A program made the translations under genes and the position numbers. The notes under the pieces are model-generated. The model was not told the origin of the DNA. It was given only the letters and a program-made list of their open reading frames with translations, and made no database searches. Below are positions 14,837-36,579 of a stretch of 64,000 nt of DNA, one piece after another (position 1 is the stretch's first letter; every line of letters starts with the position of its first letter). The stretch is from positions 1,061,684 to 1,125,683 of the forward strand of contig CP070701.1 of NCBI GenBank assembly GCA_020349885.1, given 5' to 3'. The stretch comes from Acidobacteriota bacterium. GTDB lineage: Bacteria > Acidobacteriota > G020349885.

Positions 14837-16501
14837 CTATTCGCTGCTTTGTTCCCGCAACTCTTCGATGCCGTCGCGGAGCTTTTCCAACTGCTCCCGG
14901 TAGGCCGGCTTCATGGGATAGAGGCGGTGCGCGGTCTCGAAATCCGAAAGCGCGTCTCTTCCGTTTCCAAGACGCAGGTGGGCGCGACCGCGCACGTCGT
15001 AGTAGAACGGCGTCCGGGGATTGAGCGCGACGGCGCGGTCGGCGTCGCGCAGGGCCCGCTGCACGGCAGACGCGTGCGGCGCAGGCCCGAGCAGGCGGAT
15101 CTGGGCGCGGTAGACGGGGATTTCGGCCTTGAGGGGATACAGGCGTTCGCCCCGATCGAGGTACCGAAGGGCTTTCTTGCTCTCTCCGGCCCGGTACGCA
15201 AACTCCGCCTCCTCGTAGAGGCGCGTTCCGCCATAGACGAAAAGGGCCGCCAGAAGCGCCGCGCCGAGCAGCGCCGCCGATGCGGCGTGCTCGAGGCGCG
15301 GCATGGACGGAGCTCCGCGCGGGGCGGGGGCCGCGGTTTCGCGCATGCGCCATGCCATGCCCGCGAGCATGAAAAAGGGGTAGGCGACGCCCGGCTCGTA
15401 GAACGTGAAGTCCACCGCGTTGTGAAGAAGAAACGCGAGGCACGCCGCCTCGACCGCGAGGGCGGACGGCCCGCGAGAACGAAATATTTTTCGAAACCAC
15501 CCCCACAAGAGCCATCCCAAAAGCGCCGCGCCCGCGAGGCCGCCTTCCGTGAGGTGCTGAAGGTAGGTATTGTGCGCGTAAAGGGTCTCGTTCATGCCGG
15601 GACGGCGGAAGCGGGGATACTCGAGGCCGTAGCCTCCGAAGCCCTTCCCAAGAAAAGGGCTTTCTTTCCACATCTCCATGGCGGCTTGCCAGTTGGCGAG
15701 GCGGAGCGCCACCGGCGACGCGCTCCGCCGCTCCTCGATTCGTGCCGCCGCCACGCCCCAGGCGAGGGCGAGGGCGAGGGCGGCGAGAATAAGCCACCCC
15801 GTGACGCGGCGCGTGCGACCGGCCGCTGCGGCCGCGGCCCCGGCCAGCGCCAGAGCGAGCATCGCCCCCGCGGAGAGCGTGAGAGCGAGGTTGGCGGCAA
15901 GGAGCGCCAAAAGCGCCCAGAGGAGGACGTCCCGCCACGCGGGGCGGCGCCCGGTCAGGGTTGCGCCGACGGCGATGGGAAGCGCCATCGCCAAAAATCC
16001 GGCGTAGGCCGTGGGAAGGGGAAAGCGCGCGAAGATACGGCCCGATTCTAACCGTTCCAGGATTTCGGGCGGCACGGCATCCATGCGCGCCCGCGCGAGC
16101 TCCGCGCTGCGCTCAAGCCCGAAGCCCCACTGGTAGAGTCCGTAAAGCGCCGCCGCAGCGCTGAGCACCAGGAGCGCCGTTCGAAAGCGGCTATGGTCTT
16201 GCGGTGGAAGGCGGTACGAAAGCCAGGCGGTGGCCGCGTAGGAGAGGAAAAGAAGGCCGTGCTCGAGCGACAGGGCGCGGTAGCTCGCCGCCGCCCAGGC
16301 GTTTAGAGAAAAAAAAGCGGCAAGGATCCAGACGGCGCGCGGCAGGGCATTCCCCCGCGCCACGGCGTAGAGGCCTCCCCCCAAACTGAGCGCCATAGCC
16401 GCCCCCCAGCCGCCCGTGTGGACGCCGGGAGGCCAGAGAACGCTTACGCAAAGAAGGGCAAGGACAGTAAGAAGCGGTATCAATGAATGGTGCACACGCA
16501 T
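14837..16501 (-). CDS. O-antigen ligase / Wzy-like membrane protein with C-terminal TPRs
   Basis: A 554-residue protein with about ten to twelve hydrophobic membrane segments (residues 8-425) and a large periplasmic loop that includes KGFGGYGLEYPRFR and LYAHNTYLQHLTEGGL. The H-N-x-Y/L-Q pattern in that loop is the hallmark of the O-antigen ligase (Wzy_C) family. Residues 440-550 carry TPR-like helices (KALRYLDRGERLYP, LRDADRAVALNP, ALSDFETAHRLYP). It would join or polymerise O-antigen or a related glycan at the periplasmic face. The ATG at 16501 sits right against GAGGGGG; a GTG at 16495 has better spacing and may be the true start. Confidence 0.82.
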   Translation of the reverse strand: MRVHHSLIPLLTVLALLCVSVLWPPGVHTGGWGAAMALSLGGGLYAVARGNALPRAVWILAAFFSLNAWAAASYRALSLEHGLLFLSYAATAWLSYRLPPQDHSRFRTALLVLSAAAALYGLYQWGFGLERSAELARARMDAVPPEILERLESGRIFARFPLPTAYAGFLAMALPIAVGATLTGRRPAWRDVLLWALLALLAANLALTLSAGAMLALALAGAAAAAAGRTRRVTGWLILAALALALAWGVAAARIEERRSASPVALRLANWQAAMEMWKESPFLGKGFGGYGLEYPRFRRPGMNETLYAHNTYLQHLTEGGLAGAALLGWLLWGWFRKIFRSRGPSALAVEAACLAFLLHNAVDFTFYEPGVAYPFFMLAGMAWRMRETAAPAPRGAPSMPRLEHAASAALLGAALLAALFVYGGTRLYEEAEFAYRAGESKKALRYLDRGERLYPLKAEIPVYRAQIRLLGPAPHASAVQRALRDADRAVALNPRTPFYYDVRGRAHLRLGNGRDALSDFETAHRLYPMKPAYREQLEKLRDGIEELREQSSE

Positions 16502-16588
16502 TCCCCCTCTTGGCGGGACTGGAACCCGCCCGCCGATCCCGACAAGTCGAGGACAGGTTGGCGGGTGGGGCTTGCGCTACAAGAAACC

Positions 16589-16625
16589 AAAAAAACGCGG
16601 GGGCTCTTTTGCGAGCCCCCGCGTT
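16589..16625 (-). terminator. Rho-independent terminator of the pilin-like gene
   Basis: A 13-bp perfect stem (AACGCGGGGGCTC with its complement, 16594-16625, loop TTTTGC) followed on the minus strand by seven T (complement of 16595-16589). It lies 38 bases after the stop of the pilin-like gene. Confidence 0.92.
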
Positions 16626-16662
16626 AAACGCGTTTTATGTCAACTGTCGCAGGACACGCGGA

Positions 16663-17223
16663 TCAACTGCTCTTTGACCCGGTTGCAGTGGTTGAATTGC
16701 AGCCGCCGAAAAAGAACTGACCGTCTGCAAAAGCGATGTCGCATTCCCACCTTCGGCTTGTTCGATCGGCGAAGTGAGTGCCCGTCACGGGATCAGTCAG
16801 CAAGTCAGCCGGGGCCGCTAATCCTTTGTCTGCAGGGCCGTCCGAGCCGCCGGAACCCAACCCATAGATCGCCGGGTTCGGGGTAGCGCCTCGGTTGCCA
16901 TACTGAATAGGCATTCCCCAGCCGTCCACGGCCGGCGGGTTATCGAGGTAGCCCAAGGCGTCGAGGAAGGCATTGAGCCCGGTGGAGGGTGTGCCAACGT
17001 CCTCCGGGCCGCCGCCCACATCGACCGACACGCCGAAGTTGTCGATTTTGTACGACTCGACGCCAGTGCCGAGCGTACGGATGTCGCCCGACGTCGCCTT
17101 GTGGCGAGAGCGGTTCATTGCATCGAGCAGATTCGGGATGGCTATCGCGGCAATGATGCCGATGATGGCCACCACGATGAGCAGCTCGACAAGCGTGAAA
17201 CCTTTGCTCTTTTTTGTTCTCAT
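16663..17223 (-). CDS. Type IV pilin / type II secretion pseudopilin (GspG-like)
   Basis: A 186-residue protein with the prepilin leader MRTKKSKG, cleavage before FTLVE (Glu+5 present) and a hydrophobic N-terminal helix (LLIVVAIIGIIAAIAIP). The C-terminal part is Gly/Pro/Ser-rich, with the DGWGMPIQY strand common to GspG-like major pseudopilins, and ends CNSTTATGSKSS. It is processed by PilD-type peptidase and assembled into a pilus or pseudopilus. No other secretion or pilus assembly gene is adjacent; pilT is 13 kb away. Expression appears to depend on sigma-54, with a strong terminator after the gene, so it is monocistronic and probably highly expressed. Confidence 0.92.
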   Translation of the reverse strand: MRTKKSKGFTLVELLIVVAIIGIIAAIAIPNLLDAMNRSRHKATSGDIRTLGTGVESYKIDNFGVSVDVGGGPEDVGTPSTGLNAFLDALGYLDNPPAVDGWGMPIQYGNRGATPNPAIYGLGSGGSDGPADKGLAAPADLLTDPVTGTHFADRTSRRWECDIAFADGQFFFGGCNSTTATGSKSS

Positions 17224-18684: not shown

Positions 18685-18785
18685 TACGCCCAGCGCCGGA
18701 CTTGTTCGGAGCCACTTACCCGTGGGCCCACGGAAGGGCATGGCGGAAATCTCGGGCATGCAGATGTCCGCCCCAAACCGCGTCG

Positions 18786-18814
18786 TTGACGCGGTGATTC
18801 GCCGAGAGTATCCT
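18786..18814 (+). promoter_or_regulatory. Promoter of the first TMTC-like gene
   Basis: TTGACG, 17 bases, TATCCT; the -10 ends 11 bases before the ATG at 18826, giving a leader of only a few bases. Confidence 0.6.
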
Positions 18815-18825
18815 GCTCCTATTTC

Positions 18826-20757
18826 ATGGGCAAGAAAAGCCGAATCAAAAAATCTCGCACAACCCCGAAAGCCCCCGGTGCGGCGCCGAGGCCCGTCGGG
18901 GAGGAAGCCCTCGCGGAAAGCTGGGCCATCCCCCTCTGGGTTGCGCTTGTCGTCCTGGTCGTCTTGCCTTCCATTCTTTATTTTAATTCCTTATCCAACC
19001 CTTTCCTCTACGACGATTCTCATAGCCTTGTGAAAAATTCCCACGTCCGCAGCCTCGAAAACATCCCCTCCTTTTTCACCAGCGCCCGGACCACCAGCAT
19101 CCACTCCGACAAGGGCCACTACCGCCCCGTCCTCTTCTCCACCTACGCCCTCAGCTACGCCCTCGGCGGCTACGACTACGACCCCAAGGTCTTCCGCCTC
19201 GCGAACCTCGTCCTTCATACCCTCAACGGCCTGTTGGTCTTCGCCGTGTTTCGACGCCTTTCCGGGAAGACAGCCCTTGCGTTTTTCGCAGCGCTCTTGT
19301 TTGCCGTGCATCCCCTGAACGCCGAGAGCGTCAACTACATCAGCTGCCGTTCGAACGTGCTGGCGACGACGTTTTACCTGGCGAGCGTGGGGCTGTTCGT
19401 GGGCTATGCGGGCGGCGCCTCGATGCGGCGGCGGGCGGCTTTCTACGCGGGCTCGCTTCTTTGCTTCGTGCTGGGGCTGCTGTCGAAGGAGATTGCGGTG
19501 ACGCTGCCGGTGATGTTGGTTCTGCTGGACGTGCTAGCGCTAAGTCCGTGGAAGGGAAACGTAGAGGTGAAGAAACTGGTTCGCCGGCACGCGGCGTTTT
19601 TCGTCGTGACGGCGTTGTACGGGGGGCTGCTGGTGGGCAAGATGCTGGTGCCGAGTTACGAGAAGCGGGACGTGCTTTCGAATCTGATTATCCAGACGAA
19701 GGCGATGGCGTATTATCTGAAGCTTCTGGTGTTTCCCCGGGGGCTGAGCATCTCCCACGGCTTTGATACGGAGGGCTTGCTGAATCTGGCCTTCAGCGTC
19801 TCGTTGCTTGTCATCGGCGCCAGCTTGTTCCTGGCCTGGAAGCTGCGCGGGCGCTGCGGTCTCCTGAGCTTCGCCATCCTATGGTATTTCATCACCCTGC
19901 TTCCGACTTCGAGTGTTATCGCCCTGTATGTTCCCGTCAACGAGCACCGAGTCTATCTTCCCGGAATAGGGTTTGCCGCGGCGATTGGATTCGCGATGAA
20001 TTACGGAAGGCGCCGCCTCCCCCTCCCTGCGGCCAGGTTCGTCGCGCCGCTCTTTTTGGTCGTCATGGCTGTTTTTTCCATCATAGTCGTTGCACGAAAT
20101 CGAGTGTGGCAAACGCCCGATGCCCTCTGGGAAGACGCCGCTCGGAAATATCCTCACAATGCCCATGCCCATGAGGCCCTGGCGAACAGCTATGCGCGGC
20201 AGGGGTACTTGGAAAAAGCCAAAAGGGAATACGAACTCGCCGTACGGTACGCCGGGAAGGAAGGCGTGTCGTTGTCGCTCAACCTGATCAACCTGATCAA
20301 CGAGGCGGGCGACTACCGGGGCGCCTTGAAAGCTTACGAGGAGCGCTTGCGGATAGAAGAAGAGGCGGGAAATCGGGCCGGCGTGGCCCTAGCGCTCACG
20401 AACATCGGGATTGTCCACGGCAACTTGGGCGACTTCACGAAAGCGCTGGAGCATTTTGAAAAAAGCCTTGAAATCGAGCAGGAGCTGGGCAACAAGAAGA
20501 CGATGTCGCGCCTGTACACCAATATCGGTGCGACCTACGGCAGGCTGGGCGACTCGGCCCAGGCGATCCGGCATTTTGAAAAAGCGGTAGAGATGGAGCC
20601 GAGGACAGCGGAAGCGTACATCAATCTGGCGCATGCGTACCTTCAGGTACCGAGGGTGAAGGAGGCCGAGGCCGTCTGCGAAAAGATGAAGAATCGCGGC
20701 TTTCACGTGCCTGAGGATTTAAGGAAGCGTCTGGAAGCCGCCGTGGAAAATCCGTGA
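18826..20757 (+). CDS. TMTC-like membrane glycosyltransferase with TPRs, copy 1
   Basis: A 643-residue protein with a basic cytosolic tail (MGKKSRIKKSR), then about ten or more membrane helices (residues 35-420). The first periplasmic loop has FLYDD, the acidic pair typical of GT-C glycosyltransferases, followed by HYRPVLFSTY. Later come FAVHPLNAESVNYISCRSN and the VNEHRVYLPG loop. All align in order with eukaryotic TMTC O-mannosyltransferases and their bacterial relatives. Residues 435-640 are TPR repeats (FTKALEHFEKSLEIEQELG, AQAIRHFEKAVEMEP). It probably transfers a sugar from a lipid carrier in the periplasm; acceptor and sugar are unknown. It is first of three tandem paralogs and shares a 98-base identical run with copy 3. 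Confidence 0.78.
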   Translation: MGKKSRIKKSRTTPKAPGAAPRPVGEEALAESWAIPLWVALVVLVVLPSILYFNSLSNPFLYDDSHSLVKNSHVRSLENIPSFFTSARTTSIHSDKGHYRPVLFSTYALSYALGGYDYDPKVFRLANLVLHTLNGLLVFAVFRRLSGKTALAFFAALLFAVHPLNAESVNYISCRSNVLATTFYLASVGLFVGYAGGASMRRRAAFYAGSLLCFVLGLLSKEIAVTLPVMLVLLDVLALSPWKGNVEVKKLVRRHAAFFVVTALYGGLLVGKMLVPSYEKRDVLSNLIIQTKAMAYYLKLLVFPRGLSISHGFDTEGLLNLAFSVSLLVIGASLFLAWKLRGRCGLLSFAILWYFITLLPTSSVIALYVPVNEHRVYLPGIGFAAAIGFAMNYGRRRLPLPAARFVAPLFLVVMAVFSIIVVARNRVWQTPDALWEDAARKYPHNAHAHEALANSYARQGYLEKAKREYELAVRYAGKEGVSLSLNLINLINEAGDYRGALKAYEERLRIEEEAGNRAGVALALTNIGIVHGNLGDFTKALEHFEKSLEIEQELGNKKTMSRLYTNIGATYGRLGDSAQAIRHFEKAVEMEPRTAEAYINLAHAYLQVPRVKEAEAVCEKMKNRGFHVPEDLRKRLEAAVENP

Positions 20758-20830
20758 GGCTTCTCGACACGCGTAGAAACCGTTCCTAAAATGGGATAGT
20801 TGACACTCCTTGAATAAGTAGCTATCGCTC
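20758..20830 (+). repeat. Duplicated spacer between TMTC-like genes, first unit
   Basis: The 73 bases between copies 1 and 2 are almost identical to 22736-22807 between copies 2 and 3 (one-base deletion and one or two substitutions). Both contain TTGACA (20800-20805 here). This marks tandem duplication of a gene plus its upstream spacer. Confidence 0.85.
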
Positions 20831-22735
20831 ATGGGCAAGAAAAGCCGAAGCAAAAAATCTCGCACAGCCCCGAAAGGCCCCGGTGCGGCGCCGAGGCCCG
20901 TCGGGGAGGAGGCCCTCGCGGAAAGCTGGGCCATTCCCCTCTGGGTTGCGCTTGTCGTCCTGGTCGTCTTGCCTTCCATTCTTTATTTCAGCTCTCTAAC
21001 CAACCCTTTCCTTTACGACGATGTCCACAGCCTCGTGGACAATCCACACGTCCGCGGCCTCCAAAACATCCCCTCTTTCTTTACCACCACCACAACCACC
21101 AGCGTCTTTTCCGACAAAGGGCACTATCGCCCCGTCCTCTTTTCGACCTACGCCCTAAGCTACGCCCTCGGCGGCTACGATTACGATCCCGGGATGTTTC
21201 GGGTGTTCAACCTTGTCTTTCACGTCTTGAACAGCCTGTTGGTCTTTGCCGTGTTTCGGTCCATCCTCCGCAGTAGCACGGCTACGGAGGACGGGCGCAT
21301 TTTCGGGAAAACGGCGGCGGCGTTCTTTGCGGCGCTTTTGTTTGCCGTTCATCCTCTGAACACGGAGAGCGTCAACTACATCAGCTGCCGCTCGAACGTG
21401 CTGGCGACGACGTTTTACCTGGCCGGCGTGGGGCTGTTCGTGGGGTATGCGGGAAGCGCCATGATGCGGCGCCGGACGGCTCTCTACGCGGGCTCGCTTC
21501 TTTGTTTCGTGCTGGGGCTTTTGACCAAAGAAATCGTGATTACCCTTCCTGTGATTTTGATGCTTTTGGATATTTTGATTCTTAGTCCTGACGCGAAAGT
21601 CTTTGATCTCAAGACTCTATTTCGCCGCCACGTGATGTTCTGGGTGATCGCGGGGGCTCATCTATTTCTGATTTTCGCCGTGAGCCTTAAACCCGCTTAC
21701 GAAAGGCGCGGCGTCCTTTCCAACCTTCTCATCCAGACCAAAGCAGTGGTATTCTACTTGCGGCTTTTGGTGTTTCCGCGGGGTTTGAGCGTGTCGCACG
21801 GTTTCGAGTGGCAGGGCACGGCAAACGCGGCGTTTTTCCTATCGCTTGCGGTTCTCGGGATTCTTGTGTTCGCAGCCTGGCGTATGCGCGAACGCATGGC
21901 CCATATGAGTTTTGGCGTTTCTTGGTATTTCATCACGTTACTTCCGACGTCGAGCTTCTTGCCTCTGAACATTCCCGTGAACGAGCACCGAGCCTATCTT
22001 CCGGCGGTAGGGTTTGCAGCGGCCGTAGCGTTCTTGTTGGAGCTTGCCCGTGGCATGTCGGTACCTATCCAGAGTAAGTCGGTAGAGGCGCGCACCCGTC
22101 TCCGGCCAGCCCCGACGCTTGGGCGTCTCGGGCAGGCCCTTTCGAAGCTCGCCGTGCCGCTCTTTGTGGTCGTCGTAGGAATCTTTTCCGTCGCGGTCTA
22201 TGCGCGGAATCAAGTCTGGAAGACGCCCGTCGCTCTCTGGGAGGATGCCGTGAAGAAGTATCCTAACAACGTCCACGCGCACGAAACGCTGGGCCTCGAA
22301 TACGAGAAGATCGGAGATTTGGAAAAAGCCGAGCAGGAGTTTCTGTTCGCGGTTCGGCACGGCGGGACCGATGAAACGCTGGCAAAGTCCCATAACGGAC
22401 TGGGCATAATTTACGCAAAGAGAAAAGAGTACGAAAGCGCCATCGAGCACTTTACGCTTTCCGTTGAGCTGACCCCGAGCGCCTGGCATCCGAACCACAA
22501 TCTGGGCATCGCTTATGTGGCGCAAGGGCACAACGAAAAGGCCCTGAAATACCTTCAGAAAGCCGTGGAGCTGAACCCGCATGATGAGCAGCCTTACCGT
22601 TATCTTGCGAAAGTCTACCTTGCCCTCGGCAAGATCGACGAGGCAGGAGGCGTCCTTCAGGAAATGAAGAAGCTCGGCTTTAGTGTCCCGGAAGATTTGC
22701 GAGAACGTCTCGAAACCGCTATGGAAAATCCATGA
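20831..22735 (+). CDS. TMTC-like membrane glycosyltransferase with TPRs, copy 2
   Basis: A 634-residue paralog of the preceding gene. The first 40 residues are nearly the same (MGKKSRSKKSRTAPKGPG), FLYDD and HYRPVLFSTY are kept, and FAVHPLNTESVNYISCRSN matches copy 3 almost exactly. The middle (about 240-420) differs from both neighbours: LFRRHVMFWVIAGAHLFLIF replaces the segment shared by copies 1 and 3. TPRs occupy about 470-630 (YESAIEHFTLSVELTP, NEKALKYLQKAVELNP) and have their own sequence. Same fold and likely reaction as copy 1, but the divergent middle and TPRs suggest another acceptor. It is preceded by the repeated spacer and followed by another copy of it. Confidence 0.78.
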   Translation: MGKKSRSKKSRTAPKGPGAAPRPVGEEALAESWAIPLWVALVVLVVLPSILYFSSLTNPFLYDDVHSLVDNPHVRGLQNIPSFFTTTTTTSVFSDKGHYRPVLFSTYALSYALGGYDYDPGMFRVFNLVFHVLNSLLVFAVFRSILRSSTATEDGRIFGKTAAAFFAALLFAVHPLNTESVNYISCRSNVLATTFYLAGVGLFVGYAGSAMMRRRTALYAGSLLCFVLGLLTKEIVITLPVILMLLDILILSPDAKVFDLKTLFRRHVMFWVIAGAHLFLIFAVSLKPAYERRGVLSNLLIQTKAVVFYLRLLVFPRGLSVSHGFEWQGTANAAFFLSLAVLGILVFAAWRMRERMAHMSFGVSWYFITLLPTSSFLPLNIPVNEHRAYLPAVGFAAAVAFLLELARGMSVPIQSKSVEARTRLRPAPTLGRLGQALSKLAVPLFVVVVGIFSVAVYARNQVWKTPVALWEDAVKKYPNNVHAHETLGLEYEKIGDLEKAEQEFLFAVRHGGTDETLAKSHNGLGIIYAKRKEYESAIEHFTLSVELTPSAWHPNHNLGIAYVAQGHNEKALKYLQKAVELNPHDEQPYRYLAKVYLALGKIDEAGGVLQEMKKLGFSVPEDLRERLETAMENP

Positions 22736-22807
22736 GGCTTCTCGACACGCGTAGAAACCGTTCCTAAAATGGATAGTTGACATTCCTTGAATAAGTAGCT
22801 ATCGCTC
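22736..22807 (+). repeat. Duplicated spacer between TMTC-like genes, second unit
   Basis: A near-identical copy of 20758-20830. It keeps GAGGCTTCTCGACACGCG at the left and AAGTAGCTATCGCTC just before the start codon. Confidence 0.85.
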
Positions 22808-24823
22808 ATGGGCAAGAAGAGTCGAAGGAAAAAATCTCGCACAGCCCCGAAAGCCCCCGGTGCGGCGCCGAGGCCCGTCGAGAAGGAGGCCCTCGCGGAG
22901 GGTAGGGCCATCCCCCTCTGGGTTGCGATTGTCGTCCTGGCCGTCCTGCCTCCCGTTCTTTATTTCAATTCCCTGAATAATGAGTTCCTCTACGACGATT
23001 TCCATAGCCTCATAGACAACCCCAACATACGAAAGCTCGAGAACATCCCTTCTTTCTTCGCCAGCGCCCGAACCACCAGCCTCCACTCCGACAAGGGCCA
23101 CTACCGCCCCGTCCTCTTTTCGACCTATGCGCTCAGCTACGCCCTCGGCGGCTACGATTACAAACCCGAGGTCTTCCGCCTTGCGAACATTATCCTTCAC
23201 GTCTTGAACGGCCTGCTGGTCTTTGCGGTGTTGCGATCCCTCCTCCGAAGTCCCGCTTCGAGCGTGACGGGGGACGGGCGGGTGTCCGGAAACACGGCGG
23301 CGGCGTTCTTTGCGGCGCTTTTGTTTGCCGTTCATCCTCTGAACACGGAGAGCGTCAACTACATCAGCTGCCGCTCGAGCGTGCTGGCGACGACGTTTTA
23401 CCTGGCCGGCGTGTGGCTGTTCGTGGGCTATGCGGGCAGCGCCTTGATGCGGCGCCGGATGGCTCTCTACGCGGGCTCGCTTCTTTGTTTTGCGTTGGGG
23501 CTGCTGTCGAAGGAGATCGTGGTGACGCTGCCGGTGATGTTGGTTCTGTTGGACGTGCTGGCGCTTCCCGGCGAAATCGGTGTCCCGATTTCACGTTGGG
23601 GCAAGCCCTGGGATACGGTGAAGGCGCTCGTTCGTCGGCACGCGGCGTTTTTTGTCGTGACAGCGTTGTACGGGGGGCTGCTGGTGGGCAAGATGCTGGT
23701 GCCGAGTTACGAGAAGCGGGACGTGCTTTCGAATCTGATTATCCAGACGAAGGCGATGGCTTTTTACTTGCGGCTTCTGGTGTTTCCGTGGGGCCTGAGC
23801 ATCTCCCACGGCTTTGATACTGAGGGCCTGCTGAATCTAACCTTCAGCGTTTCGCTGCTTGTCATCGGCGCCGGCTTGTTCCTGTCTTGGAAGCTGTGCA
23901 GGCGCTACGGCCTTCTGAGTTTCGCTGTTTTGTGGTATTTCATCACCCTGCTTCCGACCTCAAGCGTTATCGCCCTGAGGGTTCCCGTCAACGAGCACCG
24001 AGTCTATCTTCCCGGAATAGGCTTTGCCGTGGCGGTGGGCTTTCTGGTGGATTACGCTGGCCGACGGGCCCGGACGGGGCGGCGCCTTGCGCCCCCTCTA
24101 TCCAGGCTAATCGTGCCCGCCTTCCTTGCGGTCACGGTCGTTTTTTCGATATCGGTCATGGTGCGGAACCAGACTTGGAAAACTTCCAAGAGGGTGTGGG
24201 AGGACGCGGCCAAGAAGTACCCGCGAAACAGCCTTCCGCATGAGGCCTTGGCCAATATTTACGAAAGGCAAGGGTACTTGGAAAAATCCAAAAGGGAGCG
24301 CCAGCTGGCCCTCCGGTACGCGGGAAAAGAAGGTGTGCCCGTATCCCTCAGCAATGTAGCAGCGTTCCACGACGCAAGCGACTACCGGAACGTCGTGAAG
24401 GCCTACGAGGAGCGCTTGCGGATCGAGGAAAAGGCGGGAAATCGTGCCGCCATGGCTGAAGCGTTCATGAACATCGGGATTGCCCACGGTAACTTGGGCG
24501 ACTTCACGAAAGCGCTGGAGTATTTGGAAAAAAGCCTCGAAATCGAGCAGGAACTGGGCGGCGGTGGATTGTCGCGTTTGTACAACAATATGGGAACGGC
24601 TCACGGCCAGCTGGGCGACTCGGCGAAGGCCCTGCAGTATTTTGAGAAAGCGGTGGAGTTGGAGCCGAAGACGGCGGAAGTGTACATCAACCTGGCCCGT
24701 GCGTATCTGAGCGAATCGAGGCCCCACGAGGCAAAGATTGTGTGTGAGAAAATGAAAAAGCTCGGCCTTAATGTTCCGGAGGATTTGCGGAAGCGCCTCG
24801 AAGCCGCCGCGAACAATCCGTGA
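22808..24823 (+). CDS. TMTC-like membrane glycosyltransferase with TPRs, copy 3 (mosaic)
   Basis: A 671-residue third paralog. The N-terminal tail and FLYDD region match the other two. Around residues 160-205 it matches copy 2 at DNA level with one difference in about 120 bases. From LVRRHAAFFVVTALYGG on it follows copy 1, including 98 identical bases (23663-23760 against 19612-19709). It therefore reads as a chimera of copies 1 and 2. TPRs at 470-665 resemble copy 1 (FTKALEYLEKSLEIEQELG). An insertion (LPGEIGVPISRWGKPWDTVK) is unique to this copy. Predicted role as for copy 1: periplasmic lipid-linked sugar transfer, not proven. Confidence 0.78.
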   Translation: MGKKSRRKKSRTAPKAPGAAPRPVEKEALAEGRAIPLWVAIVVLAVLPPVLYFNSLNNEFLYDDFHSLIDNPNIRKLENIPSFFASARTTSLHSDKGHYRPVLFSTYALSYALGGYDYKPEVFRLANIILHVLNGLLVFAVLRSLLRSPASSVTGDGRVSGNTAAAFFAALLFAVHPLNTESVNYISCRSSVLATTFYLAGVWLFVGYAGSALMRRRMALYAGSLLCFALGLLSKEIVVTLPVMLVLLDVLALPGEIGVPISRWGKPWDTVKALVRRHAAFFVVTALYGGLLVGKMLVPSYEKRDVLSNLIIQTKAMAFYLRLLVFPWGLSISHGFDTEGLLNLTFSVSLLVIGAGLFLSWKLCRRYGLLSFAVLWYFITLLPTSSVIALRVPVNEHRVYLPGIGFAVAVGFLVDYAGRRARTGRRLAPPLSRLIVPAFLAVTVVFSISVMVRNQTWKTSKRVWEDAAKKYPRNSLPHEALANIYERQGYLEKSKRERQLALRYAGKEGVPVSLSNVAAFHDASDYRNVVKAYEERLRIEEKAGNRAAMAEAFMNIGIAHGNLGDFTKALEYLEKSLEIEQELGGGGLSRLYNNMGTAHGQLGDSAKALQYFEKAVELEPKTAEVYINLARAYLSESRPHEAKIVCEKMKKLGLNVPEDLRKRLEAAANNP

Positions 24824-24950: not shown

Positions 24951-27900
24951 ATGACGTGCCCATCCTGCCATCAAGAAAACGCCGAAGGCCTCAAATTCTG
25001 CGGCCACTGCGGCACGCGCCTCTCCCGCACCACGGCCTGCTCCAAGTGCGGTTTCGACAATCCAGACTTTCACAAGTTCTGCGGCGAGTGCGGCACGCCC
25101 CTTTCGCCGGCGGCTGCCCCGGCGCCTGCGCCGCCACCCGCTCCCGCACCTGCCGCCGCGACTCCCCCGCAACCGAGCGAGGAACCGGTCACCCCCACCT
25201 CCCTCGCCGCTTCCCGAATGACGGGAGAGCGGCGGCAGGTGGCCGTCCTTTTTGCGGATGTCGTCGGATTTACGGCCATGAGCGAGAGCATGGACCCGGA
25301 GAACGTGACCGACATCATGAACCGCTGCTTCGAGCGCCTCGAAAAGGACATCAAGCGCTACGACGGCACGATTGACAAGTACATGGGCGACTGCGTGCTC
25401 GCGGTGTTCGGCGCGCCCATCTCCCACGAAAACGACGTGGAGCTTGGGCTCCGCGCCGCACTCCAGATGCGCGACTCGCTCGAGGTTCTGAATAAAGGCC
25501 TTGAGGTCAAGTTGAACCTTTCGCTTGGCATCACGGCCGGCGAGGTCATCGCGGGCCAGGTGGGCGGCAAGGAAAGCAAGTCCTACACCGTGATGGGGGA
25601 TACGGTCAACGTGGCGCAGCGCCTCCAAGGCGCGGCCGCCCCGGGGGAGATCCTGGTGTCAGCGGCCGCGCAGCGCCTCACGCGCCACCTCTTTGAGTTC
25701 GAGCAGCGCGAGCCCGTGCGCGTCAAGGGCAAGGCCGAGCCGGTGCCCGCCTACGCGCTGCAGGCCGTGCAGACGACCGTGCTGACGGAGAGCACTCTCC
25801 CTCCCCTCATCGGGCGCACGCGCGAGTGGAACACCCTGCGCGGCTGGACCGAAGAGGTCATCGAGACGCGCAAAGGCAAACTGGTGTCCATTGTGGGTGA
25901 AGCGGGCATCGGGAAGTCTCGCCTCAAATACGAGCTGAAGCAGTGGCTGCGCGAAAAAAACATTCCCCTCCCCGAAGGCCGCGCGGAGCGCAGGGGCGAA
26001 GCCCGCAGCTACGCCCCGTTCGTGGACATGCTCCGGCAAATTTTTTCCATCCAGCCCGAGGACAGCAAGGCCACCACCAAGGAGTGCCTCGAGAAGGAGG
26101 GCGCCGCGATGGGGCTTCATTCCGTCGAGATTCAATCGATCGGGGAGCTCCTTGCAGTCGAATTCGAAGAGGCGACGTTCAGCCACCTCGACGCCAAGGG
26201 GCGCAAGACGACGACGTTTCTCGCCGTGCGCAAAATCGTAAACCATCTCGCCGCGCAGGGGCCGCACGTGTTTATTTTCGAGGACCTGCAATCCCTTGAC
26301 AAGCTGTCGTTCGATCTTCTGGAGTTCCTGCTGCCCCTGGTCGAAACGCAACCCATCCTCGTTGTATGCCTTTATCGTCCCACGTTCACGCACACGTGGG
26401 GCCGTTACGAATTTTACCAGCGCATATATCTGAAGGAGCTTTCGCCCGCGGACACCGACGCCCTGGTCGAGCACCACGCCAAGGCGAAAATCCACGCCGA
26501 GATCAAGGCCATGATACGCGAGAAGACGCAGGGCAATCCCCTCTACGTCGAAGAGGTGGTGCGCACGCTCCGGGAGGAAATTCCCGATTTCGCGGAAAGC
26601 TCTCCCGAAAAACTCAAGCGCCTCATCACACAGCGCGTGCCGACCTCGGTGCAGGGCATTGTCGCCGCGCGCATGGACCGCCTCTCGCCGGACGTGAAGT
26701 TTGCGCTGCAGGCGGCTTCGGTGATCGGGCGGGAGTTTTCGCACAAACTCCTCCTGCGGCTTCTTCCGGTGCAGGACGCGCTCGAGGACTGGCTGGCCAT
26801 CCTGGCCGAGCGCGGCTTCATCTACGAGCGCCCCGGAGCCAAGGAGCGCGAGTTCGTCTTCAAACACACCTTCGTCCAGGACGTGGCCTACCGGATGCTT
26901 CTTCAGAAGCACCGGGCGGAACTCCACAGTGCCATCGCCGAGTCCATCGAAGACCTTTACAAGGAGCAGCTCGAGGAATATTACGAGCGGCTCGCCCACC
27001 ATTGCCAGGAAGGCGGGCAGCCCCTCAACGCGGCCGCCTACTGGCTCAAGTCCGGCGACCGCTCGCGGGGGCTCTACGATAACGAGCGTGCCACCACTCA
27101 CTACAACCGCGCACTGGCGCTCCTCGAGAAAGCGGAGTCGAAAGGAGACGCGTCGTGGACCAAGCGGTGCGCCCAAGCCCTGCTGGGGCGCGGGCTTTCC
27201 CATCAGCTGCTCGGGCACTACGATGACGCCGCGCGGGACTACGAAAAGGCCGGCGCCCTGGCGCGCGAAGTAGGCGACTCGACCCTGCTCGTTGACGTGC
27301 TCGACCGCCACGCCGAGGCGCACCATTTCATGGGAGCTTTCAACCAGGCCATCGTCCTCGGGCAGCAGGGGCTGGAGGAGGCAAGGCGAACGGACTACAA
27401 GCTCGGCATCGCCCGATGCCTCCGGGTCATCGGCATCGCCTATCACGGCCTGGGCGACGCCGAGAAGTCGCAGCAGTACCAGCAGGAAGCACGCACCATC
27501 TTTGAGGACTCGGGCAACAAGTACGAACTCGCGAGCGTGCTCAGCAACCTGGGCGTGCTGTTCACCGACCGGGGCGAGTACCTTGAGGCGCTCGCCTATT
27601 TGACGGAGTCGTTGCACATCCTCGACGAGCTTCAGGACAAGCTGGGACTCGCCTCGTGCTACAACAACATCGCGAGTCTGCACCGGTTCCTGGAAAATTT
27701 CGAGGACGCCGTTCAGAACTTCGAAGAGTCCCATGCCCTGAGCCTTGAGACCGGCTCCGCTTACGGCATCGCCCGCAACCTCATCGACATGGGGGAGCTG
27801 TACCTCGCCATGGGGGAGAAGGAGCAGGCCGAGCATGCGCTTGCCGAGGCGCTTCGCATGGCGCGCGAAGACAACCTCAAGCCGCTCGTGGCCGACGCCA

Positions 27901-28208
27901 TGGTGCTTCACGGCGTCGTGCGCGCCCAAGCGGGCGAGCGCAACGCCGTGACCGACATCTTGGAGGGCATCCACCTCGCCGAGACCCTGATGAAGCCCAA
28001 CACCACGCTCTGGGCCAAATACTACCTGGGCGAGCTCTACCGCGAGTGGGGAGACACGGAGAAGGCAAGCCGCCTCCTGGCGGAAGCCGCCGAGCTGGCG
28101 CAGAAGATCCACATGCTTCACTACGAGAACAAAAGTCGCGAGGCGCTCGCGGCCATGGGGGCGGCTAAGGCGACGTCCTATGCGGCGCCGTCCGCCGGGC
28201 AGGAGTAG
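24951..28208 (+). CDS. Class III nucleotidyl cyclase fused to STAND-type ATPase and TPRs
   Basis: A 1085-residue protein. Two zinc ribbons lead (CPSCHQENAEGLKFCGHCG and CSKCGFDNPDFHKFCGECG, residues 3-45), then a Pro/Ala linker. The cyclase domain (about 90-260) has both metal Asp (LFADVVGF, YMGDCVLAVFG), the base-selecting Lys in DKYMGD and Asp in VMGDTVN, and the transition-state Asn/Arg pair (VNVAQR), so adenylate cyclase activity is likely. A P-loop ATPase follows (GEAGIGKS at about 310; Walker B IFEDLQSLD) and then TPRs at 680-1070. This is the architecture of large signal-sensing cyclases. GGGGGAAGGA precedes the ATG. No input partner is adjacent; it follows the TMTC cluster by 127 bases. 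Confidence 0.9.
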   Translation: MTCPSCHQENAEGLKFCGHCGTRLSRTTACSKCGFDNPDFHKFCGECGTPLSPAAAPAPAPPPAPAPAAATPPQPSEEPVTPTSLAASRMTGERRQVAVLFADVVGFTAMSESMDPENVTDIMNRCFERLEKDIKRYDGTIDKYMGDCVLAVFGAPISHENDVELGLRAALQMRDSLEVLNKGLEVKLNLSLGITAGEVIAGQVGGKESKSYTVMGDTVNVAQRLQGAAAPGEILVSAAAQRLTRHLFEFEQREPVRVKGKAEPVPAYALQAVQTTVLTESTLPPLIGRTREWNTLRGWTEEVIETRKGKLVSIVGEAGIGKSRLKYELKQWLREKNIPLPEGRAERRGEARSYAPFVDMLRQIFSIQPEDSKATTKECLEKEGAAMGLHSVEIQSIGELLAVEFEEATFSHLDAKGRKTTTFLAVRKIVNHLAAQGPHVFIFEDLQSLDKLSFDLLEFLLPLVETQPILVVCLYRPTFTHTWGRYEFYQRIYLKELSPADTDALVEHHAKAKIHAEIKAMIREKTQGNPLYVEEVVRTLREEIPDFAESSPEKLKRLITQRVPTSVQGIVAARMDRLSPDVKFALQAASVIGREFSHKLLLRLLPVQDALEDWLAILAERGFIYERPGAKEREFVFKHTFVQDVAYRMLLQKHRAELHSAIAESIEDLYKEQLEEYYERLAHHCQEGGQPLNAAAYWLKSGDRSRGLYDNERATTHYNRALALLEKAESKGDASWTKRCAQALLGRGLSHQLLGHYDDAARDYEKAGALAREVGDSTLLVDVLDRHAEAHHFMGAFNQAIVLGQQGLEEARRTDYKLGIARCLRVIGIAYHGLGDAEKSQQYQQEARTIFEDSGNKYELASVLSNLGVLFTDRGEYLEALAYLTESLHILDELQDKLGLASCYNNIASLHRFLENFEDAVQNFEESHALSLETGSAYGIARNLIDMGELYLAMGEKEQAEHALAEALRMAREDNLKPLVADAMVLHGVVRAQAGERNAVTDILEGIHLAETLMKPNTTLWAKYYLGELYREWGDTEKASRLLAEAAELAQKIHMLHYENKSREALAAMGAAKATSYAAPSAGQE

Positions 28209-30558: not shown

Positions 30559-31734
30559 ATGCAGATTAACGAAATCATCAAGACCGCCGTCGAACGGGGC
30601 GCCTCGGACCTTCACCTGAAGGTCGGCAGCCATCCCATCATTCGCATCAACGGGAAACTCTCCCCGATGGCCGACATGAAGCGCCTCATGCAGGAGAACA
30701 CCATCGCGATGGCGTTCTCCGTCATGAACTCGAAGCAGAAGCAGAAGTTCAAGAAGAATCACGAGATTGACATCGCCTACAGCGTTCCCGGGGTCGGCCG
30801 CTTTCGCTGCAACATCTTCCAGCAGCGCGGCACCATCGGGCTCGTGCTGCGCGTCATCCCCGTGAAAATCCTGAGCTTCCGCGAGCTGCTGCTTCCTCCG
30901 GTGCTCGCCCAAATCTCCGAGGAAACCCGCGGCCTCATCCTCTGCACGGGGACGACGGGATCGGGCAAGTCCACGACGCTCGCAGCCATGATCGACTACG
31001 TCAATTCGACGCGCGTCGAGCACATCATCACCATCGAGGACCCCATCGAATTCCTGCACCGCGACAAGAAGAGCATCATTAACCAGCGGGAGGTGGAGGT
31101 CGACACGAAGAGCTTTTCGGGCGCCCTGCGCTCCGCGCTGCGCCAGGACCCGGACGTGATTCTCGTGGGCGAGATGCGCGATTACGAAACCATAGAAACG
31201 GCCCTCACCGCGGCCGAGACGGGCCACCTCGTGCTTTCGACGCTCCACACGGTCGACGCCACGGAAACCATCAACCGCATCATCTCGGTCTTCCCGCCGC
31301 ACCAGCAGAAGCAAATACGGCTCCAGCTCGCCGGCATCATCAAGTCCATCATCTCGCTGCGCCTGCTTCCCAAAGCCGACGGCGCCGGCCGCGTGCCCGC
31401 CGTCGAGGTCATGCGCTCCACGGCCTACATGCGCGACTGCATCATCACGCCGGAAAAAACCAACATGATACGCGACGCCATCGCGGCCGGCGTTTCCCAG
31501 TACAGCATGCAGACCTTCGACCAGTCGCTCTTCCGCCTGTACTCCGATAACCTCATCACCCTCGACACGGCGATGCGCTACGCGTCGAACGCCGACGAGT
31601 TCAAGCTCAAGATCCAGGGCATCGAGTCGTCGGCCGACAAGGCGCGGGAGGAAATGGAAAAGGAGATGAAGACGGGGACTCAGGAAGAGGACGTGTTCGG
31701 CGATGACTCGCCCTTCCAGTTCTCGAAGCTTTGA
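30559..31734 (+). CDS. pilT: Type IV pilus retraction ATPase PilT
   Basis: A 391-residue secretion ATPase. N-terminal domain residues 1-110, then Walker A GTTGSGKSTT (about 132), Asp box EDPIEFLH, Walker B DPDVILVGEMRD (about 198), His box ETGHLVLSTLHT. The AIRLQLAGI-type segment of PilT (QIRLQLAGIIKSI) is kept, which separates it from PilB. It powers pilus retraction and twitching. The C-terminus carries an extra tail ending EDVFGDDSPFQFSKL. It overlaps recX by four bases. Confidence 0.95.
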   Translation: MQINEIIKTAVERGASDLHLKVGSHPIIRINGKLSPMADMKRLMQENTIAMAFSVMNSKQKQKFKKNHEIDIAYSVPGVGRFRCNIFQQRGTIGLVLRVIPVKILSFRELLLPPVLAQISEETRGLILCTGTTGSGKSTTLAAMIDYVNSTRVEHIITIEDPIEFLHRDKKSIINQREVEVDTKSFSGALRSALRQDPDVILVGEMRDYETIETALTAAETGHLVLSTLHTVDATETINRIISVFPPHQQKQIRLQLAGIIKSIISLRLLPKADGAGRVPAVEVMRSTAYMRDCIITPEKTNMIRDAIAAGVSQYSMQTFDQSLFRLYSDNLITLDTAMRYASNADEFKLKIQGIESSADKAREEMEKEMKTGTQEEDVFGDDSPFQFSKL

Positions 31735-32405: not shown

Positions 32406-32957
32406 ATGAGACACTCGATAATACCTAAAGGTATCATGGGTGGAGTTGTTGGACTGATTGTTGCGAACGTTGCCTACGCCGATCCCGGGCCCCGGATCGC
32501 GGACCTTACGATGCGCGAGCAGGGCGGCGGCGTCGAGGTGTCGTTCCATGTCCTCAACGCCTTCACGGACGAGGTGCGGAAAAGGATCGAAAGCGGTATT
32601 CCCGTTTCCTTCACGCACCACATCCAGGCCATAAATCCGCGATGGTGGTGGTGGAATCGCAAGGTGGTCGCGCGGGCGGTCGTGACGACGGTGCGCTTCG
32701 ACCCGCTCACGCACCAGTACCATCTCACGCGCGAGCAGGACGAACGCACGGTGGACGAATGGTCCACGGACGAATTCCAGGAGGTCACGCTCTGGATGAC
32801 GCGGCTTGAGAACGTTCAGCTTGAAATTCCGCCCGAGGAGCGCGGCCGCATTACACACATTCGGGTGCGCACGGAGATTCTGGGGCGGCGCCTCCTCCAC
32901 GTGCTTCCCTGGCCGATCGAAACGCCCTGGGCGCAAATTCGGCTTTCCAAACCATGA
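32406..32957 (+). CDS. DUF4390-family secreted protein
   Basis: A 183-residue protein with a signal peptide (hydrophobic IMGGVVGLIVANVAYA, cleavage likely before DPGP). The mature part is a beta-rich domain with VEVSFHVLNAFTDEVRKRIESG and VARAVVTTVRFD, the pattern of DUF4390, a family commonly encoded beside NtrY-type kinases. Its function is not established; a periplasmic input role for the kinase is inferred from position. The stop overlaps the start of ntrY (ATGA). ATGs at 32397 or further up give longer versions. Confidence 0.8.
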   Translation: MRHSIIPKGIMGGVVGLIVANVAYADPGPRIADLTMREQGGGVEVSFHVLNAFTDEVRKRIESGIPVSFTHHIQAINPRWWWWNRKVVARAVVTTVRFDPLTHQYHLTREQDERTVDEWSTDEFQEVTLWMTRLENVQLEIPPEERGRITHIRVRTEILGRRLLHVLPWPIETPWAQIRLSKP

Positions 32958-35176
32958 GCGCGGAAGAATCCGTCCGGAAAGAAGATCTCGAGGAGCGGCG
33001 CCGCCGGCAGAGGCTCGCCTATCGCATAGCAACGCTTGGCATCGCTCTGCTCCTCGCGGTGGCCCTGGTGTTCGGCGGACTGGTGCGCTCGCACCCCGAG
33101 TGGTTCGAGGCGCTGTCTTCGGAAGGGATTCTGCTCTACGCCGTCACCTCCCTGAACATCATCCTCATCGCCGCGCTTCTCTTTATTCTCTTTCGCAATC
33201 TTGTCAAACTTGCCGTCGAACGGAAGCGGGGCATCCTCGGCGCGCACTTTAGAACGAAGCTCCTGTGGGCCTTCCTGCTCATTGCCATGGTGCCGTCGAT
33301 CGGGCTTTTCTGGGTGGCGCGTGACCTCATAGGGAAAAACATCGAGAGCCTTTTCAACCCCCCGATGGAATCGGTGCTCTCGAACGCGTTCCACATTGCG
33401 GAGTCTTACTATGAACAGGCCAAGCACATGGCCGTCGCTGAAAGCGAACGCCTGAGCGCCGAGCTGGCGGGCCCGCTCGCGCGGGGTGACCGCTCGGCCC
33501 TCCGGAAAGCGCTCCGGCGGGAGCAAAGCTTTCCCGGAGTGCGCCGCGCCGCGGTGTACAAGCCTTCGGGAGACGTCTCCGCTTCATGGCTTGCCGAGGG
33601 AGAATCCGACGTGCTTCTTTTGAGCAAGGATATCGAGAAGCTCCGCCGCGGCGAGCGCGTCGTGCGCTGGAGCGAGCCGGACCGAAATCGCCTCCTCGTG
33701 CTCACCCCCATCCGCCGCGGCGGCGCGCTCCGGGGCGTTCTGGCGTTTGAGACCGCCATGGCGGGAAACCTTTCCCGGAAGGCCGTCCTCCTGGGCGAGC
33801 AGTACAAAGCCTACAAGCAGCTGAGCCTCCGCAAGCGCACCATCAAGCACAGCCGCGTCTGGACGTACGGCACGATATATCTTCTGATTATTTTTTCCGC
33901 CTGCTGGCTGGGTCTCTACCTGGCCCGGGTCATCACGAAGCCCATCGAGGCCCTCCTTGAGGGCACGCATGCCGTTTCCACGGGACGTTTCGACTATCGC
34001 GTGGAGGTGGAGGCGGCCGACGAGCTGGGTCTCCTGGTGCAGTCGTTCAACGAGATGACGCGTGAGGTCGCTTCTTCGAGAGAGGCGCTTGAGCGTTCCA
34101 AAGAGAGCCTTGAGCAGGCGAACGTTGAGCTCGAGGCGCGCCGGCGAAACATCGCGGCCATACTGGAAAACATTCCAACGGGCGTCATCTCCATAAGCGC
34201 GGACCGCTCGATCCTCTCGGCCAACGGGGCGGCGCGTGAAATTTTAGACCTGAATCCCTCGGAGCCCATCGAAGGCATGGCGGCCGAGTTCCTGTTCCGC
34301 CGGCTGGGCGTGAAAGAAATCTGGCATGCGCTCGAAGACTTTATCAAAAACCCCGCCCAGCCCTTCCAGCGCCATCTTGCCCTTGTCCTTCCCGCGCGCA
34401 CGGTGCGGGTGATCCTGAGCGCCGTGGCCTCCCAGACGCTTCAGCGTGGGGATAGGTCCGCGGGCGCCATCTTGGTGCTCGAGGACGTGACCGAACTCAG
34501 CCGGGCCCAGAAAATGGCCGCCTGGCAGGAGGTGGCCCAGCGGATGGCGCATGAGGTGAAAAATCCGCTCACACCCATCCACCTTTCGGCGCAGCGCATT
34601 CTTAAAAATTACCGCCCCAACGACGCGGATTACGAGCGCCTCGTGCGCGAATGCGTCGCGTGCATCGTCGAGGAAGTGAACGCCCTCAAAGCCTTGGTGG
34701 ACGAGTTCTCCCGCTTCGCACGGCTTCCCGCCCCCCAGCCGGTGGACATGAATCTGGAGGAATGCATCGATTCGGCGCTCGTTCTCTACGAAGGGCACCA
34801 CGAAAACCTCTCGTTTGAAAAGCGCGTTCCGAAGAATCTTCCCCTGGTGAAGGGGGACCCCGAGCAGTTCAAGCGCGCCCTCGTGAATCTTCTGGAAAAC
34901 GCCGTCGAGGCCACCAACAGGCGGGGAGCGATCACGGTGACTGCTTCCTTTGACGAGGAGCACCACATCGTGCGCGTCGAAGTGCGGGACACGGGACGCG
35001 GCGTTTCTCCCGAGGAGCGCGAAAAACTCTTCCTTCCCTACTTCTCCACGAAGGCGAAAGGCATGGGCTTGGGGCTTGCCATCGTAAGCCGCATCGTCTC
35101 GGACCACAGCGGCCGCATCACCGTATCGGAAAACGTTCCTCAGGGGAGCGTCTTCACCGTGGAGATTCCCGCGTAG
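32954..35176 (+). CDS. ntrY: NtrY-type membrane sensor histidine kinase
   Basis: A 740-residue kinase with three or four membrane segments (about 25-45, 58-78, 95-120, 310-330) around a periplasmic region, HAMP (ARVITKPIEALLEGT, about 322-375), coiled coil, PAS (about 400-490), HisKA with phosphorylated His533 (MAHEVKNPLTP) and HATPase_c (N box LLENAVEATN, DTGRGVSPEE, GMGLGLAIV). NtrY/NtrX pairs govern nitrogen, redox and envelope functions. It is coupled to the DUF4390 gene by an ATGA overlap and to the regulator by a 12-base gap. Confidence 0.92.
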   Translation: MSAEESVRKEDLEERRRRQRLAYRIATLGIALLLAVALVFGGLVRSHPEWFEALSSEGILLYAVTSLNIILIAALLFILFRNLVKLAVERKRGILGAHFRTKLLWAFLLIAMVPSIGLFWVARDLIGKNIESLFNPPMESVLSNAFHIAESYYEQAKHMAVAESERLSAELAGPLARGDRSALRKALRREQSFPGVRRAAVYKPSGDVSASWLAEGESDVLLLSKDIEKLRRGERVVRWSEPDRNRLLVLTPIRRGGALRGVLAFETAMAGNLSRKAVLLGEQYKAYKQLSLRKRTIKHSRVWTYGTIYLLIIFSACWLGLYLARVITKPIEALLEGTHAVSTGRFDYRVEVEAADELGLLVQSFNEMTREVASSREALERSKESLEQANVELEARRRNIAAILENIPTGVISISADRSILSANGAAREILDLNPSEPIEGMAAEFLFRRLGVKEIWHALEDFIKNPAQPFQRHLALVLPARTVRVILSAVASQTLQRGDRSAGAILVLEDVTELSRAQKMAAWQEVAQRMAHEVKNPLTPIHLSAQRILKNYRPNDADYERLVRECVACIVEEVNALKALVDEFSRFARLPAPQPVDMNLEECIDSALVLYEGHHENLSFEKRVPKNLPLVKGDPEQFKRALVNLLENAVEATNRRGAITVTASFDEEHHIVRVEVRDTGRGVSPEEREKLFLPYFSTKAKGMGLGLAIVSRIVSDHSGRITVSENVPQGSVFTVEIPA

Positions 35177-35188
35177 AGGTTTCCTCCG

Positions 35189-36565: not shown

Positions 36566-36579
36566 CCAGAAGACGCGCC

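Follow-up and report, generated by a model that had tools for sequence, protein, structure and literature searches.

What do three adjacent bacterial genes that resemble the animal TMTC O-mannosyltransferases encode, and what might their products modify? The genes, here called T1, T2 and T3, lie in a stretch of 64,000 nucleotides from an Acidobacteriota bacterium (NCBI GenBank assembly GCA_020349885.1, contig CP070701.1, positions 1,061,684 to 1,125,683 of the forward strand; "the window" below means this whole stretch, and positions are counted from its first letter), in a genome of 2,398,617 bases. In this study, we analyzed their predicted fold, their paralogues and relatives, and the genes around them. 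We found that T1-T3 are very probably GT-C glycosyltransferases with C-terminal tetratricopeptide repeats (TPRs), that their catalytic and TPR halves have had different histories, and that the family to which they belong is linked to type IV pilin genes. The features analyzed first are as follows:

18826..20757, + strand: T1, 643 amino acids; GT-C domain (residues ~34-430) and C-terminal TPRs, TPR class A
20758..20830, + strand: T1-T2 spacer, 73 bp
20831..22735, + strand: T2, 634 amino acids; same family, mosaic gene, TPR class B
22736..22807, + strand: T2-T3 spacer, 72 bp
22808..24823, + strand: T3, 671 amino acids; GT-C domain and TPRs, TPR class A

Fold, conserved residues and likeness to TMTC proteins

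The initial annotation described three tandem + strand genes sharing four motifs followed by TPRs, and this description held. The open reading frames (ORFs) are present, 73 and 72 bp apart, and the two spacers are alike except for one base and a single 1-base gap. All three proteins carry, in the order given, YDD (position 62), HYRP (98), FAVHPLN[AT]ESV (159, 171 and 173, respectively) and NEHR[VA]YLP (372, 384 and 395, respectively), with TPRs identified by Pfam; T2 and T3 are 62% and 77% identical to T1 at the protein level. The best stretches of all their Pfam matches (E ≤ 0.01) begin at residue 446 or later, in the TPR part, and thus routine annotation would name each of them a "TPR protein".

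An AlphaFold2 model of T1, made from an input alignment of 50 proteins, had a mean predicted local distance difference test score of 90.9 and a predicted template modeling score of 0.89. The Foldseek listing for this model was dominated by TPR proteins; GT-C enzymes surfaced with a second structural aligner, in which residues ~34-440 formed the aligned part. Oligosaccharyltransferase/STT3, AglB, Pmt4, Pmt1-Pmt2 and ArnT matched over 325-363 residues with Z 20-22 (20.6 and 20.3 for ArnT) and 9-14% identity. As known systems, ArnT, PMT/Pmt4 and STT3/AglB/PglB share the fold with T1 over ~320-365 residues (Z 18-22), but are only 9-15% identical to it; to our knowledge, ArnT, PMT and STT3 have no TPR tail. 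The helices of the model fit 11 membrane spans by our own assignment from its helix list (37-51, 120-146, 149-161, 172-196, 200-220, 222-239, 248-272, 321-340, 345-364, 379-397 and 406-427); the first loop is long, loop 4 contains a helix at 283-302, and TPR helices follow from residue 431.

Several residues of the membrane half are almost invariant among the 50 aligned homologues: D63 is kept in 49, D64 in 48, H131 in 50, H162 in 48, R175 in 49, K221 in 50 and Y377 in 49, and the D63-D64 pair is present in all six paralogues of the window's genome. Placement among GT-C folds and retention of an acidic catalytic pair, the two points that could have refuted the initial annotation, both came out in its favor. 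Two other positions are divided, namely 222 (E in 17 of the 50 homologues; P, S or V in 24) and 373 (E in 24, D in 22), so two or more subgroups seem to exist in the family, of which the KE/EHR one includes the window proteins.

With animal TMTC1-4 (GT105), T1-T3 share a GT-C half with loop-1 DD, YRP, FAVHP, loop-3 KE and loop-5 E..Y, followed by C-terminal TPRs. The animal proteins have 11 spans and a luminal C-terminal domain, as given in the excerpted text of PMC6801728. The motif order is that of Table 4 of Eisenhaber et al. (2021; PMC7801869), and by our span assignment the motif residues sit in the loops that the excerpted part of that paper, which also mentions prokaryotic homologues, gives for TMTCs. 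The M1 DD, the YRP end of M2, the M4 KE and the E and Y of M7 are present in T1-T3. Departures concern the beginning of M2 and the R of M7, which are shifted or changed, the T/Q of M4, which is replaced by I, and ERxxY, which has become EHRxY. Moreover, RxD of M3 is RSN or RSS, and DW of M5 is SHGF.

The M5 site of the window proteins holds S310-H311 (D-W in TMTC), and among the 50 homologues position 311 is occupied by H in 17 and by Y in 25. Since ArnT presumably likewise uses a histidine near this place, an altered metal site, not a dead one, is possible. A search for PF08409 (TMTC_DUF1736, loop 4) throughout the window's genome gave no match at E ≤ 10; run on 14 control genomes, it gave matches in five, none of them above the cut-off. 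Unlike the animal proteins, the window genes are bacterial and without PF08409, have altered RxD and DW motifs, and recombine with their paralogues. Because this domain is absent and two motifs are changed, we describe T1-T3 as GT-C glycosyltransferases of TMTC-like architecture and do not file them as TMTC (GT105) members: of the TMTC likeness first proposed, the layout and the motif order stood, whereas membership in TMTC proper was not supported.

Relatives and exchange between paralogues

A second cluster of three paralogues, T4-T6, lies at C1:1903.7-1910.2 kb of the same genome (locus L009) and is preceded by a short C-terminal gene tail. Further family fragments at C1:881.5 kb adjoin a 100-N gap and may therefore be assembly debris, and another 100-N gap interrupts T6, whose TPRs are thus incomplete. 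By eye, promoter-like TTGACx and TATCxx boxes precede both T1 (18760-18825) and T4 (upstream of position 7718 of L009), and TTGACA occurs in both the T1-T2 and the T2-T3 spacer.

Outside this genome the GT-C/TPR family is widespread in bacteria. Homologues were found in 22 of 40 genomes, and a profile built from the six copies matched 74 of the phylum's 119 genomes (own genome included in both counts); the genes and their motifs are thus not a chance finding. The first 22 genomes have 60 homologue places (after dropping the split gene pieces G008:C97:59074 and G029:C231:2615), and at least 107 are listed in 41 of the 52 further phylum genomes. Among the 80 loci retained of 146 relatives (the named loci), record titles included Nitrospirae, Nitrospina groups, deltaproteobacterial groups, Gemmatimonadetes, Omnitrophota and Peribacteria, as well as Acidobacteria, Planctomycetes, Hydrogenedentes and one gammaproteobacterium; identity in the best segment was at most 38%. 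An ORF of at least 350 residues matching at 1e-8 was found in 75 of the 80 named loci, and 32 of these 75 have two or more copies within the fetched stretch. Thus, clusters are common in the family, and tandem expansion in one bacterium, to which special meaning had been attached, is not a peculiarity of this genome.

The six paralogues fall into three TPR classes: A (T1 and T3), B (T2 and T5) and C (T4 and T6). The nucleotide tree of residues 1-120 separated T1-T3 from T4-T6 with a support of 100, whereas that of the TPR part grouped T2 with T5 (100) and T4 with T6 (100). Topology tests gave the same conflict. For residues 1-120, grouping T2 with T5 was worse by 139.8 log-likelihood units (P value of the approximately unbiased test, p-AU, 5.8e-5), and for the TPR part both alternatives to T2+T5 were worse by 25.8 (p-AU 3.2e-4 and 3.7e-4); for residues 201-430 the placement of T2 was undecided (p-AU 0.35, 0.07 and 0.71 for the three trees). 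At the nucleotide level, T2 is 97% identical to T1 at the 5' end but only 32-63% in TPR windows, where its identity to T5 is 60-88%; within residues 210-299 it matches T4 at 76-87% and T1 at 51-69%. T2 therefore has a T1/T3-like 5' end, T5-like TPRs and a middle more like the second cluster than like T1/T3, and is thus a recombinant. An assembly chimera was considered and rejected, as T2 is identical to none of its parents: it shares 81-97% with T1 in the front windows and 60-88% with T5 in the TPR windows.

Fourfold degenerate sites showed homogenization. Agreement was 160/206 (GT part) versus 34/63 (TPR part) between T1 and T3 (P 3.9e-4), between T1 and T2 116/174 versus 14/34 (P 6.6e-3), and between T4 and T5 147/173 versus 35/58 (P 1.6e-4). 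For T4 and T6, which have the same TPR class, the values were 157/193 and 43/53 (P 1.0). Composition alone would give 33-34%. The T1-T3 agreement in the TPR part (54%) is essentially no higher than the between-cluster baseline from the GT parts of T1 and T5 (85/160). Judging from these sites, the catalytic halves within a cluster are being homogenized, and the TPR halves much less so. Elsewhere, among 10 of the 65 same-locus pairs from named loci, picked among the most similar, a significant drop from the GT to the TPR part was found in four (both L056 pairs, L063 and L098), although misaligned TPRs could inflate such a drop. The several acceptor-binding TPR domains proposed at the outset thus find a counterpart in differing TPR modules on similar catalytic halves, with acceptor binding itself a prediction.

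Pilin genes and other neighbors

To describe the linkage, pilins were taken as PF07963 (N_methyl) matches, the first 150 listed per genome set, and PF00534 (GT1) genes, likewise 150 listed, served as a control. The Poisson expectations assume independence and are guides only, as pilins cluster and the genomes are related. In the first 22 genomes, 16 of the 150 listed pilins had a homologue no more than 5 kb away (0.96 expected; nine genomes), and in the 52 further phylum genomes eight of 150 did (0.83 expected; six genomes, three of which share one family). None of the 150 listed PF00534 genes of the first 22 genomes lay within 5 kb of a homologue (1.05 expected). The argument for a link rests on this recurrence across families and on the negative control rather than on P values.

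Named loci gave a similar picture with a prepilin pattern of our own in place of a profile. It matched 16 ORFs in 10 loci, nine of them within 500 bp of a homologue (86 kb of flank) and seven in the remaining 691 kb (binomial 1.4e-5). Seven of the nine close prepilins, from Acidobacteria and deltaproteobacterial records, are upstream on the same strand at gaps of 59-321 bp. Linkage to type IV pilin genes holds for the family, not for T1-T3 as such.

Pilin genes also recur beside Wzy_C genes, which encode the other candidate ligases. Across the 22 genomes, two of 106 Wzy_C places are near homologues (0.75 expected), and 10 of 106 are no more than 5 kb from the best listed pilin (0.28 expected). 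Six genomes (own included) have a homologue that close to this pilin, and six have a Wzy_C gene there; both are near it in the window's genome only. The idea that Wzy_C and GT-C/TPR genes strictly exclude each other at the best pilin was rejected, because the overlap of one is not significantly different from the ~1.6 expected by chance. The neighboring genes in the window are:

14837..16501, - strand: Wzy_C domain (O-antigen ligase/PglL-like) and TPRs; directly downstream of the pilin gene
16663..17223, - strand: type IV pilin-like protein (N_methyl, T2SSG), candidate acceptor; the genome's best-scoring N_methyl match
24951..28208, + strand: zinc-ribbon, Guanylate_cyc (adenylate/guanylate cyclase), AAA_16 and TPR protein (Pfam)
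30559..31734, + strand: PilT/PilU family type 4a pilus ATPase; 469 bits, NCBIfam cut-off 319

The pilin-like protein has seven Ser/Thr in its last 20 residues. The gene order of pilin followed by Wzy_C/TPR gene (14837-17223, - strand) recalls pilA-tfpO of Pseudomonas, and the product of 14837-16501 is a separate candidate pilin oligosaccharyltransferase. The PilT/PilU gene is a sign of a pilus neighborhood; the initial annotation passed over both it and the pilin gene. A cyclase/TPR regulator next to T1-T3 had been named among the hints of a dedicated system. The gene is real (24951-28208), and its product resembles TOMM kinase/cyclase proteins, under the cut-off; on the other hand, a place for it in the system was not supported, as this is a single adjacency and no cyclase was seen by eye in the list of ORFs flanking the second cluster, a survey that did not include a domain search of all of them.

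Further downstream on the + strand, 32954-36565 encodes a sensor kinase and a sigma-54-type response regulator (475 bits against NtrX, cut-off 600), and 36457-38097 an ORF with a long charged tail and no NCBIfam match at E ≤ 1e-20, whose N-terminal part we take to be MglA-type GTPase-like. Beside the second cluster, L009 15175-17712 (- strand) encodes 845 residues with N-terminal TPRs and no other Pfam domain at E ≤ 0.001, and an ORF of repeated PAEEP units (L009 14191-14700, - strand) runs across the 100-N gap that cuts T6.

Acceptors and rival explanations

The reading that best fits the fold, motifs, TPRs and pilin linkage is that T1-T3 are periplasmic O-glycosyltransferases of exported proteins, with TPRs choosing acceptors and pilins as the best candidate acceptors, and we regard it as probable. 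Each gene would encode an inner-membrane GT-C glycosyltransferase. Its membrane half (loop-1 Asp-Asp, loop-3 Lys-Glu, loop-5 Glu/Tyr) would act on the periplasmic side, where a polyprenyl-phosphate donor would supply the sugar and an exported protein would receive it, while the TPR half, on that same side, would hold the acceptor. Recombination maintains the likeness of the catalytic halves of a cluster, and the three TPR classes persist or shift between loci; alike catalytic halves with several TPR classes would then mean one glycosylation chemistry with several acceptor-binding ends. What was computed is the GT-C fold, a helix pattern compatible with GT-C topology, motif retention, TPRs, paralogy, recombination and the family-level pilin linkage; from these we infer activity, donor, sugar and sidedness, as well as acceptor selection by TPRs and type IV pilins among the acceptors. 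That protein acceptors are picked via the TPRs appears rather likely to us, whereas a pilin as the acceptor of T1-T3 in particular is possible but on balance doubtful.

The genome has 15 GT2 matches. As to the polyprenyl-phosphate-mannose synthase proposed as a check at the outset, a polyprenyl-phosphate-sugar synthase of ArnC/GtrB type is encoded at C1:148.1 kb (ArnC 7e-64, GtrB 4e-48). It fits those two better than dolichol-phosphate-mannose synthase (4e-26) and reaches the curated cut-off of none of the NCBIfam models listed. Two genes upstream lies a weak PMT_2-like membrane protein (23.7 bits, under the cut-off), which may be the partner of this synthase.

Alternatively, the acceptor of the sugar might be a polysaccharide, lipid-linked or at the surface, much as ArnT modifies lipid A, and the TPRs of T1-T3 might dock other envelope proteins in place of acceptors; ArnT is indeed among the best folds, and the ArnC-like synthase may serve its PMT_2-like neighbor instead of T1-T3. 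However, the protein-modifying STT3 and PMT match as well as ArnT, and pilins are enriched near homologues whereas PF00534 genes are not, which makes this alternative rather improbable in our view. Still less probable is that T1-T3 are true bacterial TMTC orthologues using undecaprenyl-phosphate-mannose, an idea compatible with periplasmic protein glycosylation. The shared layout, most motifs in order and the prokaryotic homologues mentioned in the excerpted text of PMC7801869 speak for it; the missing PF08409, the changed RxD and DW motifs and the higher scores of the synthase against ArnC and GtrB than against dolichol-phosphate-mannose synthase speak against it.

Several results weigh against periplasmic glycosylation of pilins by this family. 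Besides the altered M3 and M5 motifs, no GtrA flippase was found in the genome at E ≤ 0.001, and six of the 10 other same-locus pairs showed no significant drop, so homogenization is not universal. The window pilin is 1.6 kb from T1, with dnaJ between, on the opposite strand and with its own Wzy_C neighbor; the prepilin pattern matched nothing near either the second cluster or the remnant; and two of the six pilin-near cases in the further genomes are at contig ends. Of the 74 homologue-bearing genomes, at least 15 (9/22 and 6/52) have a pilin and a homologue no more than 5 kb apart, and in most no such pair appears among the matches listed. Together with the clustering of pilins and the relatedness of genomes, by which the Poisson values overstate independence, this last count favors hitchhiking, in which both genes sit in generic envelope/motility islands with no enzyme-substrate tie. 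We consider hitchhiking unlikely, yet the most serious of these alternatives, as the upstream same-strand arrangement of seven of nine close pilins and the lack of PF00534 enrichment are set against it. The rivals overlap in part and are not all mutually exclusive.

Precedents exist for parts of periplasmic acceptor glycosylation as proposed here. TfpW of Pseudomonas is a GT-C pilin glycosyltransferase (an arabinosyltransferase), and pilin glycans of Pseudomonas guard against pilus-specific phages, both according to the excerpted text of PMC11841053. We liken the family to TfpW by description, as a GT-C enzyme linked to a type IV pilin, but the window genes are not directly next to a pilin. 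PglL/TfpO-type ligases have a Wzy_C domain, whereas T1-T3 are without a Wzy_C match at E ≤ 0.01; each of the two gene types accompanies the best listed pilin at a distance of 5 kb or less in six of the 22 genomes. In Caulobacter FlmG, the TPR domain binds the flagellins that the enzyme glycosylates (excerpted text of PMC7591256). This is the same fusion of an acceptor-binding TPR domain to a glycosyltransferase, but FlmG is a cytoplasmic GT-B enzyme, not a membrane GT-C one. Among open-access literature (subscription papers and preprints aside), no title or beginning of an abstract gave bacterial TPR-tailed GT-C proteins a function or a tie to pilins, and no substrate assignment for them turned up.

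We tentatively suggest, as an unlikely but not negligible generalization, that the widespread GT-C/TPR family, of which Pfam mostly picks up the TPRs alone, might form a second class of O-glycosyltransferases for type IV pilins and other exported proteins beside the Wzy_C class, diversifying by recombination, with one catalytic half kept by gene conversion and TPR acceptor modules exchanged. Bacterial relatives of the animal O-mannosylation family are common, and the pilin linkage gives them a concrete, testable candidate acceptor. T2 and T5 carry one TPR class on different fronts, and T1 and T2 carry different TPR classes on one front; these mosaic combinations of T1, T2 and T5 are natural experiments, through which the role of the TPRs in the choice of acceptor is directly testable.

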